Assembly (NCBI RefSeq): GCF_013415885.1
Contig: NZ_CP058910.1
Location: 2,108,001-2,172,000 of the forward strand
From: Halosimplex rubrum
Lineage (GTDB): Archaea > Halobacteriota > Halobacteria > Halobacteriales > Haloarculaceae
Length of the DNA stretch: 64,000 bases
Reading direction: 5' to 3'
The stretch's first letter is position 1. Each line of letters opens with the position of its first letter. Below the pieces are notes generated by a model. It saw nothing but the letters and a program-made list of their open reading frames with translations, was not told the DNA's origin and did not search any database. Below are positions 25,789 to 36,110 of this stretch, in pieces. Position numbers and translations under genes: made by a program.

Positions 25789-26379
25789 TCAGGCGTCGCC
25801 GGGGAACTCCTGGAAGAGCGTCTCGAAGTCCTCGCTCTCGCTGAGGTCCGAGACCGTCCGGTCGGCCTCTTCCCGGAGGTCTTCGACCTCGGATTCGAGC
25901 CGTTCGTACTCCGCGCTGTCTTGGAGCTCCACGAAGTCCTTCTCGGCCTCGAGAGTCGCCTTCTTCGAGGCGAGCGAGAAGAACTCCTGCATGCGCTCGT
26001 CGTAACTCTCCCGGTCGAGCATCCGCTCGGCCGCGCCGTGGAGGTCGTCGAGCATCACCGGCTTGGTGAGGTAGTCGTCGAACGGCATCTCGACGATGTC
26101 GAAGTCGGGGTCGACGGCGGTCACCATCACGACCCGGCACTCGAGTCGGCGCTCGCGCAGCGTCTCGAGGACCTCGTCGCCGTTCATCTCCGGCATCTGC
26201 CGGTCGAGAAAGACGATGTCGACCGCCTCGTCGGCCTGGTCGAGCGCCTCGTGGGGCCCGTACGCTGTCCTGACCTCGTACTCCTCTGCCAGCCAGGTCG
26301 AGTACAGGTCGGCGATGTCGCGCTCGTCGTCCACGACGAGCACGGTTTCGTCTCCGGAGTTGCGGTTCGGCGTTGTCAT
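25789..26379 (-). CDS. Response regulator with receiver and HalX domains
   Basis: 196 residues starting at MTTPNRNSG. Receiver residues ~12-120: VLVVDDERDIADLY (acidic pocket), VDIVFLDRQMPEMNG with the phosphoacceptor Asp, VMVTA and DYLTKPV with the conserved Lys. The C-terminal ~70 residues are the helical HalX domain (MQEFFSLASKKATLEAEK), found in haloarchaeal receivers without a DNA-binding domain. It probably passes phosphate or binds partners. No kinase gene adjoins; haloarchaeal kinases are typically orphan, and three lie 4-12 kb downstream. Confidence 0.9.
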   Translation of the reverse strand: MTTPNRNSGDETVLVVDDERDIADLYSTWLAEEYEVRTAYGPHEALDQADEAVDIVFLDRQMPEMNGDEVLETLRERRLECRVVMVTAVDPDFDIVEMPFDDYLTKPVMLDDLHGAAERMLDRESYDERMQEFFSLASKKATLEAEKDFVELQDSAEYERLESEVEDLREEADRTVSDLSESEDFETLFQEFPGDA

Positions 26380-26550
26380 CGTGAGTCCCGTGATTTGGAC
26401 GGACGGATTATCGACTATCGGACGAACCAGTGCATAAAACCACCCCATCGATTATCGTGTGTGAAAACCGGATCGAGGGACCGGGCGCTTCGACCGGGTC
26501 GATCCGTCCCATCGACGGCGTTATGTCGGCGAACGCCTTGGTGTCCATCG

Positions 26551-27567: not shown

Positions 27568-27960
27568 CTACTCATCGGAGCCGGCGATCGCCGCTCGCAA
27601 CCGCGGGATCTCCCGTCCGAGCGCCCGACGCTCGATCAGGACGAAGCCGCCGAAGAGACAGCAAAAGCCCGCCGCAGTCCAGCCGTCGACGACCTCCTCC
27701 AGGAACTGGAAGCCGGTGACGGCGGCGATCAGCGGGACCGCGCCGACGGCGACGGTCGCCCACTCGTCGCGGCCCCGCGGACACCAGCGGTCTGCCCGCA
27801 GGGCCGCGTACCCCAGCGTCACGACGCCGGCCACGTCGTAGCGCAGCGCCGCGAACAGGACCGGCGGGAACGCCGACAGCCCCGGCTTGATCGCCACGAA
27901 CGCCGAGCCCCACAGCGCCGACAGCGCCAGGAACAGCCCGAGGTTGCGGTACGTGGACAC
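27568..27960 (-). pseudogene. EamA-family transporter with a large internal deletion
   Basis: 130 residues in one open frame. The N-terminal ~85 residues are the start of an EamA (drug/metabolite) transporter: LGLFLALSALWGSAFVAIKPGLS, FAALRYDVAGVVTLGYAAL. The frame then jumps to a typical C-terminal end: FLEEVVDGWTAAGFCCLFGGFVLIERRAL. A normal member has ten helices and ~290-310 residues, so about 170 residues are missing in frame. Such a protein can hardly transport, though it could still be made. The damage is next to an IS6-type element. Confidence 0.75.
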
Positions 27961-28053
27961 GCGCCGCAGTTCGGGTGATCGGGCCTACCCTTTCGGCTTC
28001 GACTCTCCGACCGGTCGAAACCGGACGACTGGAACGGGACGGACCCCCCGAAT

Positions 28054-28750
28054 GGCAGTGTTCAGATAAGCCGATTCCATGCGAACGCGAAAGAGCTAAG
28101 CCAGTCATCGGCGGTTGCTGGATCGACATGACTGAAACAGTTTGAGAACGAATTAGTTCGGCGTTTTACCTCGCGAAAGACACGTTCGACGCTGTTGCGA
28201 TTTCCATGGCGTTCGTATCTGAAATCGAGGCCGTGTCGGTCGCAGGCTTCTTTCAGCGGAGTGGCGCCGTCGACGAGAAACACGGCATCGTCGACATCGT
28301 GTTTCTCGCGGAGTTCACCGAAGAACATCTCGGCGAGAGCGTTCGTTCTCGTCGGTTCAAGCTTCGTGTGGAGTAATTCGTTCGAATCGGGATCGACGGC
28401 GGCGTACAGCCAGTACTGCTCGCCGTCGATCCGGATCACGGTTTCGTCAACCGCAACGTGATCCGGTGACCGACCAGCCTCCGGCTGTAGATCGGCCTTG
28501 TGAACCCAGTTGTGAACGGTCGAACGAGCACGATTGACACCGAATACCTCTAGAAACGAAACAGTATTCGAAAGCGAAAGTCCAGCAAGATGCAGCTGAA
28601 TACTGAGCTTCATCAGCAGCTTCGGTGTCGCCTCGCGTTCAACAAACGCTAAGTCAATCTCGTCCAAACATCCACCGAGGCGGTCGTTTTCGGGCATAGA
28701 TCACTTTGAAAACGTACCGCCTCACTCTTCATCCTTATCTGAACACCGCC
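28054..28750 (-). mobile_element. IS6-family insertion sequence
   Basis: 697 bp bounded by 17-bp terminal inverted repeats GGCAGTGTTCAGATAAG (28054-28070) and, reading inward from the right, GGCGGTGTTCAGATAAG (28734-28750), with one mismatch. It encloses a single IS6-type transposase. The flanks (CCCCGAAT left, CCCTGTAC right) do not form a target duplication, which suggests replicon fusion, deletion or recombination after insertion. Confidence 0.9.
28062..28697 (-). CDS. IS6-family DDE transposase
   Basis: 211 residues. An N-terminal helix-turn-helix (LHLAGLSLSNTVSFLEVFGVNRARSTVHNWVHK) precedes the DDE core: VAVDETVIRIDGEQYWLYAAVD with the first two Asp, FLVDGA, and the Glu in NSVERVFREVKRRT. 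Length and motifs match short haloarchaeal IS6 transposases, so it looks intact. The stop codon lies in the left terminal repeat. IS6 elements move by replicative transposition. Confidence 0.92.
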   Translation of the reverse strand: MPENDRLGGCLDEIDLAFVEREATPKLLMKLSIQLHLAGLSLSNTVSFLEVFGVNRARSTVHNWVHKADLQPEAGRSPDHVAVDETVIRIDGEQYWLYAAVDPDSNELLHTKLEPTRTNALAEMFFGELREKHDVDDAVFLVDGATPLKEACDRHGLDFRYERHGNRNSVERVFREVKRRTNSFSNCFSHVDPATADDWLSSFAFAWNRLI

Positions 28751-29200: not shown

Positions 29201-30682
29201 ATGACCGCACAAAGAGTTCCAACGAGCGTCCCAGGATTAGACGATGTTCTCAGTGGCGGGTTGCGCGAAAATCATAATGCACTGATTCGGGGGCCACCAG
29301 GTGCGGGCAAAACCATCTTCGGCTTACATTTTCTCTCTGACGGCGTGGACAACGGGGAAACAGCGTTATATATCAATCTGGGTGAACCAGGCGATTACGT
29401 CAAAGAGACCGTCGAACATTTTGATCTCAACCCGGACGGAATCCATTTCCTCGACCTCTCTCCATCTCACGAGGATTTCGACGAGGGCGAAAACTATTCC
29501 GTGTTCTCCTCAGCTGAAGTCGAACAGCCCTCGTTTATCGAAGAACTCCGCAGCACCGTCGAGGACCTCAATCCGGATCGAGTACTGCTCGACCCGATTA
29601 CCGAATTCCGCTACCTGACGACAGATGAACGCCAGTTCCGAAAACAGATTTTGAGTTTTCTTGATTTCCTCAGGGACAACGGCGCGACGGTGATATTCAC
29701 GTCGCAGGCCTCCGACTCGCTGTCTGACGATGATCTCCAGTTCCTCACTGATGCGGTCATCAACCTGGAAACCGATATCGAGGGATCGACACTCCACATC
29801 TCGAAATTCCGTGGCTCCTCCTACCAACGGGGAAAGCACTCCTACGAAATCACGGATGACGGAGTCACCGTCTTCCCGAAACTCCAGCCGGGGAAGTGGG
29901 ACCCCGAACAAATGGCTGAGACATCGGACAAACTCTCTTCGGGGATTCCCGAAGTGGACGAACTCCTCAAGGGCGGAATTGATGCCGGGACCGTGACGTT
30001 CGTCAGTGGCCCCACCGGGGCAGGCAAAACCACCACCGCGTTACAGTTCATCAAAGAGGCCGCCGGCCGCGGCGAGCGAAGTGTGATGTATTCGTTCGAA
30101 GAGTCACCAGAAACTATCCAAAAACGCTCCCGGTCGATCAATCTCCCCATCGAAGCGATGCTCGAACAGGGAACGCTCTCCATCGAAGAGATCGCCCCGA
30201 ACGAGTACACGCCAAACGAGTTCACATCACAACTCAAGACCGCCGTCGAAGACGACGAGGTGCGTATCGTCCTGATCGATGGCCTCCAGGGGTTCAAACA
30301 GAACCTTCGTGGGTACACGACGGAGCCGGAAGACGTGCTGCTCCGAATCGTGCGGTATCTTCGGGCCGCCGGCGTCTCGACCATTATTACGAACGAGGTC
30401 AGCAACATCACTGGCGAGTTCCGCGTCACCGAAGAATCAGTGAGCAACCTCGCGGACAACATTCTCTACATCCGATACGTGGAAATGGAAAGCGAACTCG
30501 GCAAGGTCATCGGCGTGTTGAAGATGCGAACGGGAGATTTCGAGCGCAGTCTCCGGGAGTTCGAAATCACGGAGTATGGGATCCGCGTCGGCGACCCGCT
30601 CGAACACATGCAGGGCATTCTCACTGGAACGCCCAGTTTCCAAGAAGACCAAAACGACGAACGGTCCCGCGATGGAGACTGA
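29201..30682 (+). CDS. Double-domain KaiC-like ATPase
   Basis: 493 residues starting at MTAQRVPTSVPG. Two RecA-type KaiC domains: CI-like (~1-235) with Walker A GPPGAGKT (~31-38), and CII-like (~245-475) with Walker A GPTGAGKT (~271-278) and SFEESPE, whose paired Glu match the catalytic pair of KaiC. In the first domain the pair is reduced to one Glu (NLGEPGD). Near the C-terminus EESVSNLADNILYIRYVE aligns by eye with the phosphorylated ISTITDTIILLQYVE of cyanobacterial KaiC: the Ser is kept, the Thr is Asn. The 3' end overlaps the next kinase gene by 11 nt, so the products are likely made together. No kaiA/kaiB is present. Confidence 0.92.
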   Translation: MTAQRVPTSVPGLDDVLSGGLRENHNALIRGPPGAGKTIFGLHFLSDGVDNGETALYINLGEPGDYVKETVEHFDLNPDGIHFLDLSPSHEDFDEGENYSVFSSAEVEQPSFIEELRSTVEDLNPDRVLLDPITEFRYLTTDERQFRKQILSFLDFLRDNGATVIFTSQASDSLSDDDLQFLTDAVINLETDIEGSTLHISKFRGSSYQRGKHSYEITDDGVTVFPKLQPGKWDPEQMAETSDKLSSGIPEVDELLKGGIDAGTVTFVSGPTGAGKTTTALQFIKEAAGRGERSVMYSFEESPETIQKRSRSINLPIEAMLEQGTLSIEEIAPNEYTPNEFTSQLKTAVEDDEVRIVLIDGLQGFKQNLRGYTTEPEDVLLRIVRYLRAAGVSTIITNEVSNITGEFRVTEESVSNLADNILYIRYVEMESELGKVIGVLKMRTGDFERSLREFEITEYGIRVGDPLEHMQGILTGTPSFQEDQNDERSRDGD

Positions 30683-32174
30683 ATTCCCCCTCACCGAGGA
30701 TATTCGCTCAAATCGGGATAGTAGAATTTCAACCGTTTTGGTTCGAACTGCAGACGAGGGAAATCGTCGCCAACTAACCAGATGGCTCACCGAGCAGGAA
30801 TCGTATGATAGAGTGGAGACGGATATTCGGACCGGCGAATTCGATTGCTGTATTCTGGATTGGGCGACACTCCTCGACAATCAGGGTGCCATTCGAACTC
30901 GAAAACAAGCGGAGCGAATTCCGCTTCCGTTCGTGTTGCTCGTCCCGGAGCAACGGGCAGACGAGATAACCAAAGCGCTTCAGGACGATGCCCGTGACTT
31001 ACATTCGCTAGTTGACGAACTACTTCGAATGCCGGTCTCGGAGCTTGAATTAGAACAACGACTCGAATCGGTTCTCAGAGCGCGTCATCAAGCGGTTGTC
31101 CTCGATGAAGAACACGAACAACTTCACGCGATCCGGGACAACCACCGCGGGCATGGAGTCATCCTCACGAACACGGATGGCATCATCGAGTACGTGAACC
31201 GTGGCTTCGAACAACAGTCGGGATATTCGAACGAGGAAGTGCTCGGAAAGACGCCGAACGTTCTCAACTCGGGCGAACACGACGAGTCCTTTTTCGCAGA
31301 CCTCTGGGAAACGATCACCTCGGGAGAGAAGTGGCACGGGGAAGTGATCAACGACCGCAAAGATGGGGAGCAATATGTTGTCGATCAAGTAATAGTGCCG
31401 CTCACGGGGCCGGAGGGTGAAATCGAGCAGTTTGTGGCGGTGAATCACGAAATCACGGAATTGCGGGAGTTAGCGAACTCGCTGAACGAGCAGCGCGACC
31501 AACTCGAACTCCTCAATCGCGTGTTACGGCACGACATTCGTAACGATATGAGCGTAATACTGGGATGGATGGAAATACTGGATGCCCACGTGGATAGCGA
31601 CGGCGAAGAGATGCTCGACCGGGTACTCACGTCAGGACGGCACGTCGTCGAACTCACGGACGTTGCCAAGACTATCGTCGAGGCGATCTTCGAAGAAGAA
31701 GATGTTTCGCTCGAATCGGTAGAGTTGGGATCGCTTCTCGAAACTGTCATCGAGACCCGAAAAGAGACGTTCGATCAAGCGACGATACGGATGGACGGCC
31801 GACCACCGGCCGTTACTGTTGAGGCCAACGAGATGCTGTCGGCCGTCTTCCGGAACCTGATCAACAACGCCGTTCAACACAACGACGCGGACGAACCGAA
31901 GGTCACGATTTCCTCGCAAGTAGACGATGGCTCGGTTCGTATCCGAGTTGCAGATAACGGGCCCGGAATCCCTGACGACCAACGAGACCAAATCTTCGAT
32001 AGCGACGAGAAGGGACTGGACAGCACGGGGACGGGAATGGGGCTGTATCTCGTCACTAATCTGGTCGATATGTACGATGGCTCGGTCTGGATTGAGGACA
32101 ACGACCCGCATGGGGCGGTGTTCGTCGTGGATCTCCCCACGAGTGACTCATCCAGTGGTGATGCCAGTGAGTGA
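30672..32174 (+). CDS. PAS-domain histidine kinase with degenerate receiver
   Basis: 500 residues starting at METEFPLTED, inside the end of the kaiC-like gene. Residues ~18-138 are a receiver-like domain: Asp in FDCCILDWATL, but the conserved Lys before Pro is replaced (LLRMPV). PAS at ~155-265 (GVILTNTDGIIEYVNRGFEQQSGYS). HisKA at ~278-345 with His-287 in LLNRVLRHDIRND. HATPase follows with N box FRNLINNAVQHND, DNGPGIP and GTGMGLYLV, all intact. No membrane segments, so it is a soluble sensor. The PAS domain has no LOV cysteine; its ligand is unknown. Confidence 0.93.
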   Translation: METEFPLTEDIRSNRDSRISTVLVRTADEGNRRQLTRWLTEQESYDRVETDIRTGEFDCCILDWATLLDNQGAIRTRKQAERIPLPFVLLVPEQRADEITKALQDDARDLHSLVDELLRMPVSELELEQRLESVLRARHQAVVLDEEHEQLHAIRDNHRGHGVILTNTDGIIEYVNRGFEQQSGYSNEEVLGKTPNVLNSGEHDESFFADLWETITSGEKWHGEVINDRKDGEQYVVDQVIVPLTGPEGEIEQFVAVNHEITELRELANSLNEQRDQLELLNRVLRHDIRNDMSVILGWMEILDAHVDSDGEEMLDRVLTSGRHVVELTDVAKTIVEAIFEEEDVSLESVELGSLLETVIETRKETFDQATIRMDGRPPAVTVEANEMLSAVFRNLINNAVQHNDADEPKVTISSQVDDGSVRIRVADNGPGIPDDQRDQIFDSDEKGLDSTGTGMGLYLVTNLVDMYDGSVWIEDNDPHGAVFVVDLPTSDSSSGDASE

Positions 32175-32267
32175 GAATACAGCAGATCTGTTCGGAAACT
32201 CTAGCAGACGGTCTACACAAGTGCTACCGAACCTCTATGTCTTCGAAGAAAGAGGTGACGGGGACTA

Positions 32268-34463
32268 ATGGAGCAACGCACGGACTCTGCGAATGAGATC
32301 GACTCTTGTGACCGGATTCTTCCGCTCCTGTCCGAGTCGGGGGACCGACGATTGGTCACCGAGTGGATCGAAGAGCATCCCTCCTACGAGCCGGCGGACC
32401 TGACAGGCAGTATTGAGGATACTGCCTTCGACGTGTGCATCATGGATACGGGGGCCTTTCAGGAACATCTCCCAGCCCTGCGCGCGAAGAAATCGGCTGC
32501 ATCACCCGTGGTGCTCCCATATCTTCTGTTACTCAACGAATCCGATCCCAACATTACCGAGATTGATGGCGGTGACCTTGCGGAAAACGTGGTGACGGAA
32601 TCGATTGATGAAATCGTCACGATGCCGATCCAGCAGGCCGAACTGCACTGGCGACTGGCAGCGTTGCTCCGCCTCCGAGAGCAGTCACTCACATTACGCC
32701 AGCGCGAGCGCGACCTCGAACGACAGGTAGATTTCCTTGAAAAAGCGCAGGACATCGCAGACGTGGGGGCCTGGGAGTACGACGTTCGTACAAACGAGAA
32801 CACCCTGACCGAGGAAGTGTACCACATACACGACCTCCCGGAAGACCGTGAACTGACGCCTGAAGAGAGCATCGAGCACTACCACCCGGATGACCAGAAT
32901 ACGGTTCGAGAGGCCTTCTGGGGAGCTGTTGAGGAGGGCGAGTCCTATGATATCGAGGTACGGCTGATCACCGCCGAGGGCGACCAGCGGTGGGTCCGCA
33001 CGCGCGGCGAGCCACAGCAGGAAAACGGCGAAGTCGTCCGCATCCGCGGGACGATCCAGGACATCACCGACCGCAAGGAGCGCGAGCGTGAACTCCGGCG
33101 TGTCAACCAGGCGGTTGAAGCTTCAGAGCACGCGATTTTCATCACTGATCCTGACGGGACGATCACGTACGCCAACCCGGCCTTTGAAGAGCTGACGGGG
33201 TTCACTCGGGAGGAAGCTATTGGTGAAACACCGGCCATCCTGGACTCCGGGGAAATGCCCGAGGGGTATTTCGAGGAGTTCTGGGAAACAATCCGCTCGG
33301 GCGAAACGTGGGAGGAAGAGGTGGTCAACCGTCGCAAGACTGGGGGGACGTACACTGCCCATCAGACCGTCGCTCCGGTCGCCGACGACGGCGACATTGA
33401 GGCATTCGTGGCGGTCCAGACCGATATCACGGAGCGCAAACAGCGAGAACAACGCCTCCAGCGACAATCACGAGCGATCGCGGACGCCCCAGTCGGCATT
33501 ACCATCTCCGACCCGGAACAGGAGGACAACCCGCTGATCTACGTGAACGACGCCTTCGTGGAGATGACAGGGTATCCGCGTGAGGAGACCTTCGGGGAGA
33601 ACTGTCGGTTCCTTCAGGGTGAGAACACGGATTCCGAGCGGGTGGCGCGGATTCGGGAAGCGATTGATAATGAGGAGCCGATTGCCATCGAGCTCCGTAA
33701 TTACCGGAAGGATGGCACCGAGTTCTGGAATCACCTCGAAATCGCTCCCGTCAGGAACGACGAGGGAGAGGTGGTCAACTACGTCGGATTCCAACAGGAC
33801 GTGACCGAGCGACGGCAACATCACCAGCAGTTAGAGACTCTCGACCGGGTCTTGCGTCACAATCTCCGTAATGAAATGAATGTGATTCGGGGGCGTGCTG
33901 AACTGATCCACTCCAAGACATCGGGCGAGGTTGCACAGTCTGCTGTAAATATTATAGATACGAGTGATGGACTGCTGGAGACAGCCGAGAAGGAACGAGC
34001 GATAACGGAAGTACTCCTGGAAGACCCGGTGGAAAAAGAACTCACTCTCAAGTCGGTACTCCAGGATATTGTTTCGACTGTTGAGTCCGTGTATCCTGAA
34101 GCGAGAGTTCAGGTCGAGTGCCCCGAAGGCGTGACTGTGAGAGCGACGGAGCGGTTTGAGGATGCACTCATTGAACTTGTTGAAAATGGGATCATTCACG
34201 ACGACTCTGACTCTCCAGAAGTTACAATCACTGTTACCCGTAGTGACGGAATAATGCATATTGACATAGCCGATACTGGACCGCAGATACCCGAGGTCGA
34301 ACAGAACATCGTAAAAGAGAATGCGGAGCGCACACCGGTGTATCACGAGAGCGGTCTTGGGTTGTGGCTCGTCAAATTGATCCTAACCCGTTCGGGGGGA
34401 ACCATCACGGTGAACGAGAATACTCCAACCGGAAATATCGTCAGGATCACGTTCCAACAGTGA
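32268..34463 (+). CDS. LOV-type, three-PAS histidine kinase
   Basis: 731 residues, soluble. Receiver-like N-terminus (~15-135) keeps Asp-60 (FDVCIMD) but has Met for the conserved Lys (VTMPI). PAS1 ~160-270, PAS2 ~280-390, PAS3 ~400-515. PAS3 carries the LOV signature GENCRFLQGENTD with the adduct-forming Cys-446, plus flavin-contacting Asn-478 (LRNYRKDG), Asn-488 (EFWN) and Gln-509 (GFQQD). The kinase part has His-531 (LDRVLRHNLRNE), a N box with ELVENG (Asn-640) and GLGLWLV; the G1 box is unusual (ADTGPQIP in place of DxGxGI). It begins 93 nt after the other kinase and is likely in the same operon as the KaiC-like ATPase. Blue-light sensing is inferred from the motif. Confidence 0.92.
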   Translation: MEQRTDSANEIDSCDRILPLLSESGDRRLVTEWIEEHPSYEPADLTGSIEDTAFDVCIMDTGAFQEHLPALRAKKSAASPVVLPYLLLLNESDPNITEIDGGDLAENVVTESIDEIVTMPIQQAELHWRLAALLRLREQSLTLRQRERDLERQVDFLEKAQDIADVGAWEYDVRTNENTLTEEVYHIHDLPEDRELTPEESIEHYHPDDQNTVREAFWGAVEEGESYDIEVRLITAEGDQRWVRTRGEPQQENGEVVRIRGTIQDITDRKERERELRRVNQAVEASEHAIFITDPDGTITYANPAFEELTGFTREEAIGETPAILDSGEMPEGYFEEFWETIRSGETWEEEVVNRRKTGGTYTAHQTVAPVADDGDIEAFVAVQTDITERKQREQRLQRQSRAIADAPVGITISDPEQEDNPLIYVNDAFVEMTGYPREETFGENCRFLQGENTDSERVARIREAIDNEEPIAIELRNYRKDGTEFWNHLEIAPVRNDEGEVVNYVGFQQDVTERRQHHQQLETLDRVLRHNLRNEMNVIRGRAELIHSKTSGEVAQSAVNIIDTSDGLLETAEKERAITEVLLEDPVEKELTLKSVLQDIVSTVESVYPEARVQVECPEGVTVRATERFEDALIELVENGIIHDDSDSPEVTITVTRSDGIMHIDIADTGPQIPEVEQNIVKENAERTPVYHESGLGLWLVKLILTRSGGTITVNENTPTGNIVRITFQQ

Positions 34464-34894: not shown

Positions 34895-35833
34895 TTAGAG
34901 GTTATTCAGGTAATCCCGTCGTTGCTCCATCTTTTCGCGCTTTGTCCGTCGGTCGTAGTGCTGTTCTAATACGACTTTCGAGACATTCGCTCCGTCTGAA
35001 ACGGTGTTTTCGGGTATCTGGCTGTTGAGCGAGTGCGTGATGCTCCCACGACGAATCGCGTGCGGGCTCACACTCGACGGACAGCTGAACGCGGCGTCCC
35101 GATCAGTCGCTTCACAGTCTTCTGAATCGCGGTCGTGTGGACACTCGGCACCGTATTCGCATGGTCGAGTCGCCCGATAACAATACCCGCGTAGCGTCGT
35201 CCGGTGTGCTCGACCCTGGTGCGACGCGAGTAGCGGCTTTCGTCTCTGGTCATCCGTTACGTCCGGACGCTTGTCGACGATCCAGTCATTCAGGAGTTCA
35301 CAGAGCTGATCAGACAGCGCCACGAGTCGCTCTCCGTCCTCCTTGTTCTTGATCGCTGTTCCCTGGTCTGGACGATGACGGACATCGAGGTACTGCTCGT
35401 CTGGGTCGTAGTCGTCGACGTCCAACGCGTGCGCGGCTCCGACACGCATCATCGTGTGCCACAGTACGGCGATTGTGACGTGCCCCAACGTCGCGTACTG
35501 GTACTTTTCGAGGTGAGCCAGTACGTTCGTAGCCTGATCCGAATCAAGCATGACGTCCCGAGTGTTCTGCTCCGGCGTCAGTGACGGGGATCGGACCTTG
35601 GTGCTCAAGTCCTGGTCAACTCCATCCACCTGCTCTAACCATCTGACGAAGACTCGCAGGGTGTCCATCTGCGTCTTCTCCGAGGCGAGTGAGAGGTCGC
35701 CTTCGTCGCGTCGCCACAGTCGGTAGCGGTGAAGTTGGCGACCGGTGAACTCGTCGAGATTCCCGATACTCTGTTCGTCGCACCAGCGAACGAAGTTCAG
35801 CGCCCATCCGAACCGCTTCGGCGTGTCGTTCAT
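34895..35833 (-). CDS. Tyrosine recombinase (integrase), altered N-terminus
   Basis: 312 residues from the ATG of MNDTPKRFGW (a longer frame begins at 35896 but reads into foreign sequence). SAM-like core-binding domain ~5-90 (NFVRWCDEQSIGNLDEFTGRQLHRYRLWRRDEGD), catalytic domain with Arg in HTMMRVGAAHALDVDD, HAIRRGSITH (HxxR) and the nucleophile Tyr in EQHYDRR. The insertion with CPHDRDSEDCEAT is typical of haloarchaeal phage-type integrases. The family normally has ~20-30 further N-terminal residues; here the gene runs into the truncated TMEM175-like gene, so the 5' end is probably lost or replaced. Confidence 0.85.
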   Translation of the reverse strand: MNDTPKRFGWALNFVRWCDEQSIGNLDEFTGRQLHRYRLWRRDEGDLSLASEKTQMDTLRVFVRWLEQVDGVDQDLSTKVRSPSLTPEQNTRDVMLDSDQATNVLAHLEKYQYATLGHVTIAVLWHTMMRVGAAHALDVDDYDPDEQYLDVRHRPDQGTAIKNKEDGERLVALSDQLCELLNDWIVDKRPDVTDDQRRKPLLASHQGRAHRTTLRGYCYRATRPCEYGAECPHDRDSEDCEATDRDAAFSCPSSVSPHAIRRGSITHSLNSQIPENTVSDGANVSKVVLEQHYDRRTKREKMEQRRDYLNNL

Positions 35834-35840
35834 CGCCGGG

Positions 35841-36110
35841 GTGCTGGCGCTCACCGGCTGTAGCCTCGCACTGCTCTGGGTGTACGCCTCGCGCAAGCGC
35901 CTGCTCCAGACGGGGCTGGCCTCGCGCGCCGTGAGGTTTCAGGCGGCCCGGTTTCTCGTCGCGCCGCTGGTGTTCGGTCTCTCGATCGGTGTCGCCGCGC
36001 TGAACGCGAGGGCGGCGATGCTCACCTGGCTGTTGCTCGTCCCGATAAACGTCACCCTGCACTCGCGGCTGGCCGAGAGCGTCGAATCGGAGGCCCCGGA
36101 GAGCGGGTGA
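35841..36110 (+). pseudogene. 3' fragment of a TMEM175/DUF1211-like membrane protein
   Basis: About 90 residues: VLALTGCSLALLWVYASRKRLL, then FLVAPLVFGLSIGVAALNARAAMLTWLLLVPINVTLH, the end of a protein with the layout of TMEM175-type potassium channels (last helices of the second repeat). The frame continues upstream only through antisense integrase sequence, so the N-terminal half is gone. Composition returns here to the high GC of the chromosome. Family assignment is by pattern and moderately sure. Confidence 0.6.

Follow-up and report, generated by a model that had tools for sequence, protein, structure and literature searches.

We examined a 64,000-nucleotide stretch of the genome of Halosimplex rubrum (contig NZ_CP058910.1, positions 2,108,001 to 2,172,000; hereafter the window), a genome available as a 4.48-Mb single contig. 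Three genes lying head to tail in the window encode a tandem-domain KaiC-like ATPase and two histidine kinases, HK1 and HK2. Both kinases open with a predicted pseudo-receiver (PsR), and HK2 also carries a predicted LOV domain. A first-pass annotation, made from the letters alone, had recognized a double-domain KaiC, a PAS kinase overlapping it by 11 nt and a third gene encoding another kinase; the coordinates and the PF06745 matches confirm this arrangement, in which a gap of 93 nt separates HK1 from HK2. Overlaps of 106 nt between the KaiC and HK1 genes are an artefact of taking the longest open frames, and are reduced to 11 nt by the ATG at 30672. The features of the three genes are as follows.

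29201..30682, plus strand: kaiC, tandem-domain KaiC-like ATPase of 493 aa (ATG at 29201, stop at 30682; two PF06745 stretches)
30443..30448, plus strand: codons of Ser415-Asn416, at the positions of KaiC Ser431-Thr432 (alignment to cyanobacterial KaiC)
30672..32174, plus strand: HK1, 500 aa, PsR - PAS - DHp - HATPase (the ATG at 30672 lies inside kaiC)
30672..31121, plus strand: predicted N-terminal PsR of HK1 (alignment; genome match G000:2138699 at 3.9e-42; no Pfam family)
32268..34463, plus strand: HK2, 731 aa, PsR - PAS - PAS - LOV - DHp - HATPase (domain searches)
32268..32717, plus strand: predicted N-terminal PsR of HK2 (D60, the Asp57 equivalent, kept; Lys109 equivalent lost)
32733..33467, plus strand: PAS1 and PAS2 of HK2, ordinary PAS domains (domain search)
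33462..33827, plus strand: predicted LOV domain, the third PAS, HK2 residues 399-520 (profile, residues and predicted model)
33603..33605, plus strand: TGT codon of the putative adduct-forming Cys446 in GENCRFLQ (sequence)
33828..34460, plus strand: DHp and HATPase of HK2 (His in RHNLRN, N box ENGIIH and G2 box kept)
34272..34289, plus strand: degenerate G1 box of HK2, DTGPQI, with Gln for the second Gly of DxGxG

A LOV domain in the second kinase

The third PAS domain of HK2 is a LOV domain as judged by sequence, residues and predicted fold. It aligns with the LOV domain of YtvA at 2.4e-36, and the NCBIfam model 'YtvA_fam' is also matched. Cys-446 in GENCRFLQ, Asn-478, Asn-488 and Gln-509, which the first-pass annotation had singled out, are all in place, and with Q450 and R447/R463 they make up a complete set of flavin contacts (N445-C446-R447, Q450, R463, N478, N488, Q509). 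The AF2 model of the domain (pLDDT 92.5) superposes on the Meiothermus LOV domain (9vf7) with a TM of 0.96 at 0.7 A and on that of the Brucella LOV-HK with a TM of 0.95. The domain is predicted to bind flavin.

The LOV domain could instead act as a sensor of redox, oxygen or flavin status, or as a dimerisation fold, in which case light would be incidental and KaiC still coupled. The photoactive Cys is missing in 5 of the 34 sampled KaiC-linked LOV domains (A, S, R, L or P in its place), sister operons have other PAS/GAF sensors in the LOV slot, and the neighbour of the Haloferax kaiC homologue cirC is annotated as FixL-like (PMC3941300). However, the window LOV domain and most of its relatives keep the Cys and all flavin contacts, and a haloarchaeal LOV domain of the same general kind, ALovD-1 of a PAS kinase, has proven photochemistry in up to 3 M salt (PMC12202551). 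We consider this explanation unlikely. The domains in which the Cys is replaced are found at sampled loci L042, L049, L063, L140 and L143, and largely keep their remaining flavin contacts.

A pseudo-receiver shared by the partners of KaiC

The first 145 or so residues of HK1 and of HK2 match no Pfam family. A profile built on this region has weak matches in the PDB, nearly all of them to receiver domains, and the AF2 model of the HK2 copy (pLDDT 87.4) reaches a Foldseek probability of 1.00 to PhoB, CheY and KdpE. The phospho-acceptor Asp (D60) is present in 40 of 40 copies and the Lys before Pro (Lys109 of CheY) in 0 of 40. Because the Asp is invariant but the conserved Lys is lost, we term the domain a putative pseudo-receiver, from its sequence and modelled fold. 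According to a review, the function of archaeal pseudo-receivers has never been studied (PMC12632262).

We searched for the PsR in 37 haloarchaeal genomes chosen only as single-contig assemblies, which hold 30 KaiC loci (one a fragment), 91 LOV domains and 1271 histidine kinases. There are 41 matches with a clean gap below them; a tandem KaiC is next to 36 of them, and a PsR accompanies 29 of the 30 KaiCs. A held-out profile, trained solely with partner proteins from the KaiC clade of the window, also detects distant copies, 17 of 22 of which are beside KaiC. No other feature of the partner proteins is as specific to KaiC as the PsR, whose genome context suggests that it may be a KaiC-coupling, or docking, module.

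At two loci beside KaiC the PsR is joined to BAT and HTH_10 domains in a Bat-type transcription factor that has no kinase (L071:4536-6548, minus strand, and L076:8510-10312, plus strand). These proteins could be KaiC partners able to bind DNA directly, and a fusion of PsR to HTH_10 is as an adapter would be.

Linkage of LOV kinases to KaiC across haloarchaea

The wider sample of loci was picked partly by similarity, so the single-contig set was used for linkage statistics. A scan of contigs with a single KaiC sequence gave only three loci, and loci were taken from whole-genome searches. A LOV domain lies within 5 kb of 15 of the 30 KaiC loci where 0.40 are expected by chance (37-fold; Poisson P 6e-19), and LOV domains are found in 16 of about 36 KaiC-adjacent kinases vs 75 of about 1235 other kinases (Fisher P 3e-10); both P values ignore genome kinship and overstate independence, because the loci are phylogenetically related. 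Linkage to LOV occurs in separate KaiC clades, and strongly supported branches force at least seven changes between the linked and unlinked states.

The order KaiC, HK1, LOV-HK2, which the first-pass annotation had suggested seeking in other genomes, is present in 8 other sampled loci (L039, L042, L049, L058, L061, L062, L063 and L142). The genomic outcome that it would have taken as a refutation, a trio kept together in no other genome, is thus not what the loci show. In many more, the LOV kinase directly follows KaiC, and a third arrangement, with the LOV kinase transcribed divergently, is that of one KaiC clade. Order and overlap of the trio are conserved on chromosomes and plasmids, and 11-nt overlaps recur; a plasmid trio of Halorussus pelagicus has them at both junctions, its LOV Cys being replaced by Ser. 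Besides kinases and receptors, no gene family recurs across clades in KaiC neighbourhoods as a common output gene, and a cluster of Bat-like neighbours (11 loci) is mostly distant from KaiC. In the same-genus genome G276 (L145:3894-10700) a different KaiC, 39% identical, has LOV kinases on both sides.

A mobile-looking island

The trio lies between two features associated with mobility.

28054..28750, minus strand: IS240/IS6-type insertion sequence, left flank (transposase 28062-28697)
28054-28070 and 28734-28750: 17-nt inverted repeats of the IS240-type element
34895..35896, minus strand: tyrosine recombinase of the phage integrase family, right flank (PF00589, 5.2e-09)

The G+C content from about 28.5 to 35.5 kb is 49-60%, vs 65-74% outside this segment. 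A same-genus genome is colinear with the window only from 35795 rightwards, and its KaiC is only 47% identical to the window KaiC. The nearest KaiCs belong to other genera or families (G362, 88% identity; Natrinema versiforme, 88%; Halorhabdus salina, 78%). The simplest reading is that the island carrying the trio was acquired horizontally, and the earlier description of it as mobile-looking agrees with these data. The same-genus comparison, in which matches begin at 35795, could not define the left boundary or an empty site, and the window has no tRNA that could mark an attachment site.

In such a setting the genes might be mere neighbours: mobile islands accumulate signalling genes, and KaiC might serve a pathway unrelated to that of the LOV kinase. 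The low-G+C segment between an insertion sequence and an integrase gene would fit, as would the frequency of KaiC relatives on haloarchaeal plasmids. However, the excess of linkage spans KaiC clades, the trio keeps its order and overlap on both kinds of replicon, and the PsR is nearly exclusive to neighbours of KaiC, including matches outside the training clade. We therefore think mere clustering decidedly unlikely.

Two other genes lie to the left of the trio. An EamA-type transporter gene (27568-28129, minus strand) is apparently truncated beside the IS240-type element. A REC-HalX response regulator (25789-26448, minus strand), about 3 kb from the trio and beyond the insertion sequence, is a conceivable but unsupported output partner.

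The KaiC protein and its phosphosites

The window KaiC matches PF06745 at 2.9e-78 in two domains, both with intact Walker A and B motifs. The catalytic Glu pair of CII (E300/E301) is intact, and CI has G61-E62 in place of Glu-Glu. The protein is nearer to KaiC than to RadA or GvpD (PF06745 263 bits vs GvpD 24 bits) and its best relatives among solved structures in the PDB are KaiC, although it falls under the NCBIfam cut-offs for circ_KaiC (172.7 vs 546 bits) and PRK09302 (269.5 vs 408 bits). In public records, for example NZ_CP008875.1 and NZ_CP035120.1, such tandem KaiCs frequently bear the name of the gas vesicle protein GvpD, although GvpD scores far under KaiC.

As noted in the first-pass annotation, the phospho-Ser equivalent is kept and Asn stands for the Thr (Ser415-Asn416). 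The Ser431 equivalent is kept in all 67 aligned haloarchaeal KaiCs. The Thr432 equivalent is Tyr in 36, Asn in 19, His in 9, Gln in 2 and Phe in 1, and in none Thr or Ser. In these relatives the position of Thr426 holds Thr or Ser, and the CII Glu that corresponds to E318 does not vary. No KaiB family member was detected in any of the 37 genomes, including the source genome, by a search that detected the S. elongatus positive control, and KaiA is reported from cyanobacteria only (PMC5520375). The earlier claim of LOV input adjoining a KaiC-family ATPase without KaiB is thus consistent with both gene order and genome search. Because the Thr432 site is missing from all 67 KaiCs and KaiB was not found in the 37 genomes, a single-site switch is more likely than the two-site Ser431/Thr432 cycle of cyanobacteria, which is unlikely in these proteins as judged from their residues. 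Tyr occupies the Thr432 position (30446-30448 in the window) in 23 of 31 LOV-linked KaiCs, and may be a tyrosine phosphosite or mimic.

These residues bear on whether the trio is a light-entrained circadian or diurnal clock, with KaiC as an archaeal timer and the LOV kinase as a photic input like CikA. Halobacterium shows free-running rhythms after light-dark entrainment (PMC2675056). In Haloferax volcanii, cirC, the only double-domain KaiC homologue, adjoins 'fixL'; cir transcripts are rhythmic and light-dependent, cirC responds to light-dark cycles, and deletion strains are arrhythmic (PMC3941300). CikA and KaiA also carry pseudo-receivers (PMC12632262). However, KaiB was found in none of the 37 genomes and KaiA is reported from cyanobacteria only (PMC5520375). 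With the Thr432 site absent from all 67 KaiCs aligned, an ordered cycle over two sites cannot proceed in the cyanobacterial way. A core clock would moreover not be expected to show the patchy, mobile distribution of this locus, and a LOV domain is missing from half of the KaiC loci. A clock is, in our view, very unlikely.

Catalytic boxes of the two kinases

The catalytic boxes of HK1 are canonical (RHDIRN, NNAVQH, DNGPGI, GMGLYLV), and HK1-type partners are often just a PsR and a kinase. The G1 box of HK2 is without its second Gly. All 15 LOV-HK2s of the main KaiC clade have another residue there (Gln, Arg, Pro, Glu, Thr or Ala), while the 44 non-LOV PsR kinases beside KaiCs of the main-clade similarity range all keep the Gly. 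LOV kinases from other KaiC clades keep it too, as does that of L142. Since this box of the ATP lid is degenerate in its clade, HK2 possibly departs from the usual autokinase role: it may autophosphorylate poorly, work as a phosphatase, or regulate KaiC or HK1 in response to light. Of the earlier label, a LOV-type histidine kinase, the LOV part holds but the word kinase may mislead.

Exchange of the sensor

For KaiC and HK1, the nearest relatives of the window proteins are at L036, L037 and L039. The PsR of the window HK2 is 68% identical to that of L057, whose KaiC is 54% identical to the window KaiC, vs 41% to that of L036, whose KaiC is 78% identical. This discordance between PsR and KaiC identities marks HK2 as an exchangeable cassette. 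In the shorter relative from G362 (L039), the best matches do not include PAS2 of HK2. The LOV domain of G203 (L119:3271-8920) is 94% identical to the window LOV domain, and its kinase gene adjoins an HK1-like gene.

A proposed light-set KaiC switch

We propose that the trio belongs to a haloarchaeal operon family in which a tandem-domain KaiC is accompanied by one or two partners, each with an N-terminal PsR that would contact the KaiC ring. HK2 would be the input arm. Blue light would form an adduct between Cys446 and flavin, and the LOV signal would pass through a helical linker to the DHp/HATPase part of HK2 and to its PsR. The rearrangement of HK2 would change the ATPase activity of KaiC or the phosphorylation of Ser415, and so alter the output of HK1, which would read the state of KaiC and pass it on as a histidine kinase by phosphotransfer to an unlinked response regulator. 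Such a module would be a light-set switch or slow timer and not an oscillator of the KaiABC type.

The proposal starts from what sequence, models or statistics establish: the domains, the LOV fold, the linkage, the near-exclusiveness of the PsR, the loss of Thr432, the absence of KaiB and the decay of the HK2 G1 box. Several points weigh against it. Flavin binding, docking of the PsR on KaiC, the direction of signalling, HK1 as output and the final response are steps that we infer, and the case for docking is one of genome context. Half of the KaiC loci are without LOV, and L036 and L037, which have the closest KaiCs (78-88%), pair them with non-LOV second kinases; light is therefore not an obligatory input. 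No KaiC was found near the G203 LOV domain, either within the 16 kb examined or genome-wide at E 1e-60. The operon has no response regulator gene, some linked LOV domains have lost the photoactive Cys, and the kinship of the loci tempers the linkage statistics. Weighing these, we give about an even chance to the view that the trio is a haloarchaeal KaiC switch with a swappable sensor, on which light would act through PsR docking. It is possible, though doubtful, that the module is more specifically a dedicated, swappable photic input, in which a LOV kinase-like HK2 that has largely lost its autokinase activity acts on the KaiC ring through a new docking PsR, with the same docking logic realized by different receiver-like domains in Proteobacteria.

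The questions of whether archaea possess a KaiC timer, and by what route light would act on it, have stood since the work on Halobacterium (PMC2675056, 2009) and on Haloferax cir (PMC3941300, 2014). The module described here provides a concrete candidate photoreceptor in a tandem-KaiC operon and a domain that may serve for docking and is a class-wide mark of KaiC partners. Its KaiC family consistently lacks one of the two phosphosites of the clock protein. The question of light input to an archaeal KaiC is thereby made testable with three proteins.

Comparison with known systems

One close parallel is cyanobacterial KaiABC with SasA and CikA, in which a ring ATPase, KaiC, likewise has two histidine kinases dedicated to it, and CikA is itself an input kinase with a pseudo-receiver. 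However, the CikA pseudo-receiver is C-terminal and the PsR described here is N-terminal, the sensor is a LOV domain, KaiB was not found and Thr432 is absent, and the relationship is one of analogy and not of membership. The pseudo-receivers of CikA and KaiA bind clock proteins or quinones (PMC12632262).

HK2 resembles the Brucella LOV-HK and kinases of the ALovD-1 type in having a canonical Cys LOV domain in a multi-PAS kinase (PMC12202551). It differs from them in its N-terminal PsR, its KaiC operon and the lost second Gly of its G1 box.

Pairs of KaiC and kinase are also present in Proteobacteria. We compared seven plasmid loci (L166-L171 and L173) from Agrobacterium, Sphingobium, Sphingomonas, Azospirillum, Paraburkholderia, Aureimonas and Mesorhizobium. 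In all seven the kinase right after KaiC opens with an unannotated receiver-like domain, which has the motif LAPxGRDA and whose profile matches the PhoB receiver at 3.8e-05. None has a canonical LOV domain, however, and the receiver-like domain appears to be without the phospho-Asp. In a profile comparison with the archaeal PsR (E 0.007, probability 5%) the two are different sequence families, and sequence does not establish homology between them beyond both being receiver-like.

The nearest published precedents are cirC with 'fixL' in Haloferax (PMC3941300) and the view of KaiC-like ATPases as archaeal signalling hubs (Makarova, Galperin and Koonin 2017, as cited in PMC5847659), which share with the trio a tandem KaiC beside PAS histidine kinases in haloarchaea. 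A tandem KaiC beside kinases is widespread, so the pairing is not peculiar to the island in the window. In the accessible KaiC papers, among which the 2017 hub text is not included, we found no report of a LOV photoreceptor, a KaiC-specific PsR, loss of Thr432 or decay of an HK2 G1 box, and the openly licensed full texts on KaiC with LOV, with haloarchaeal histidine kinases or with pseudo-receivers, which likewise leave the 2017 paper outside, report no coupling of the kind described here. The first-pass annotation, which had thought the whole module new, is partly supported: its LOV assignment and its link to KaiC hold, but it missed the PsR shared by both kinases, and the connection between KaiC and kinases had been published. 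As far as these sources go, the linkage of KaiC to kinases, the hub idea and the photochemistry of haloarchaeal LOV domains (PMC3941300, PMC5847659, PMC12202551) were already known, and it is the LOV and PsR parts of the KaiC linkage that appear to be new.

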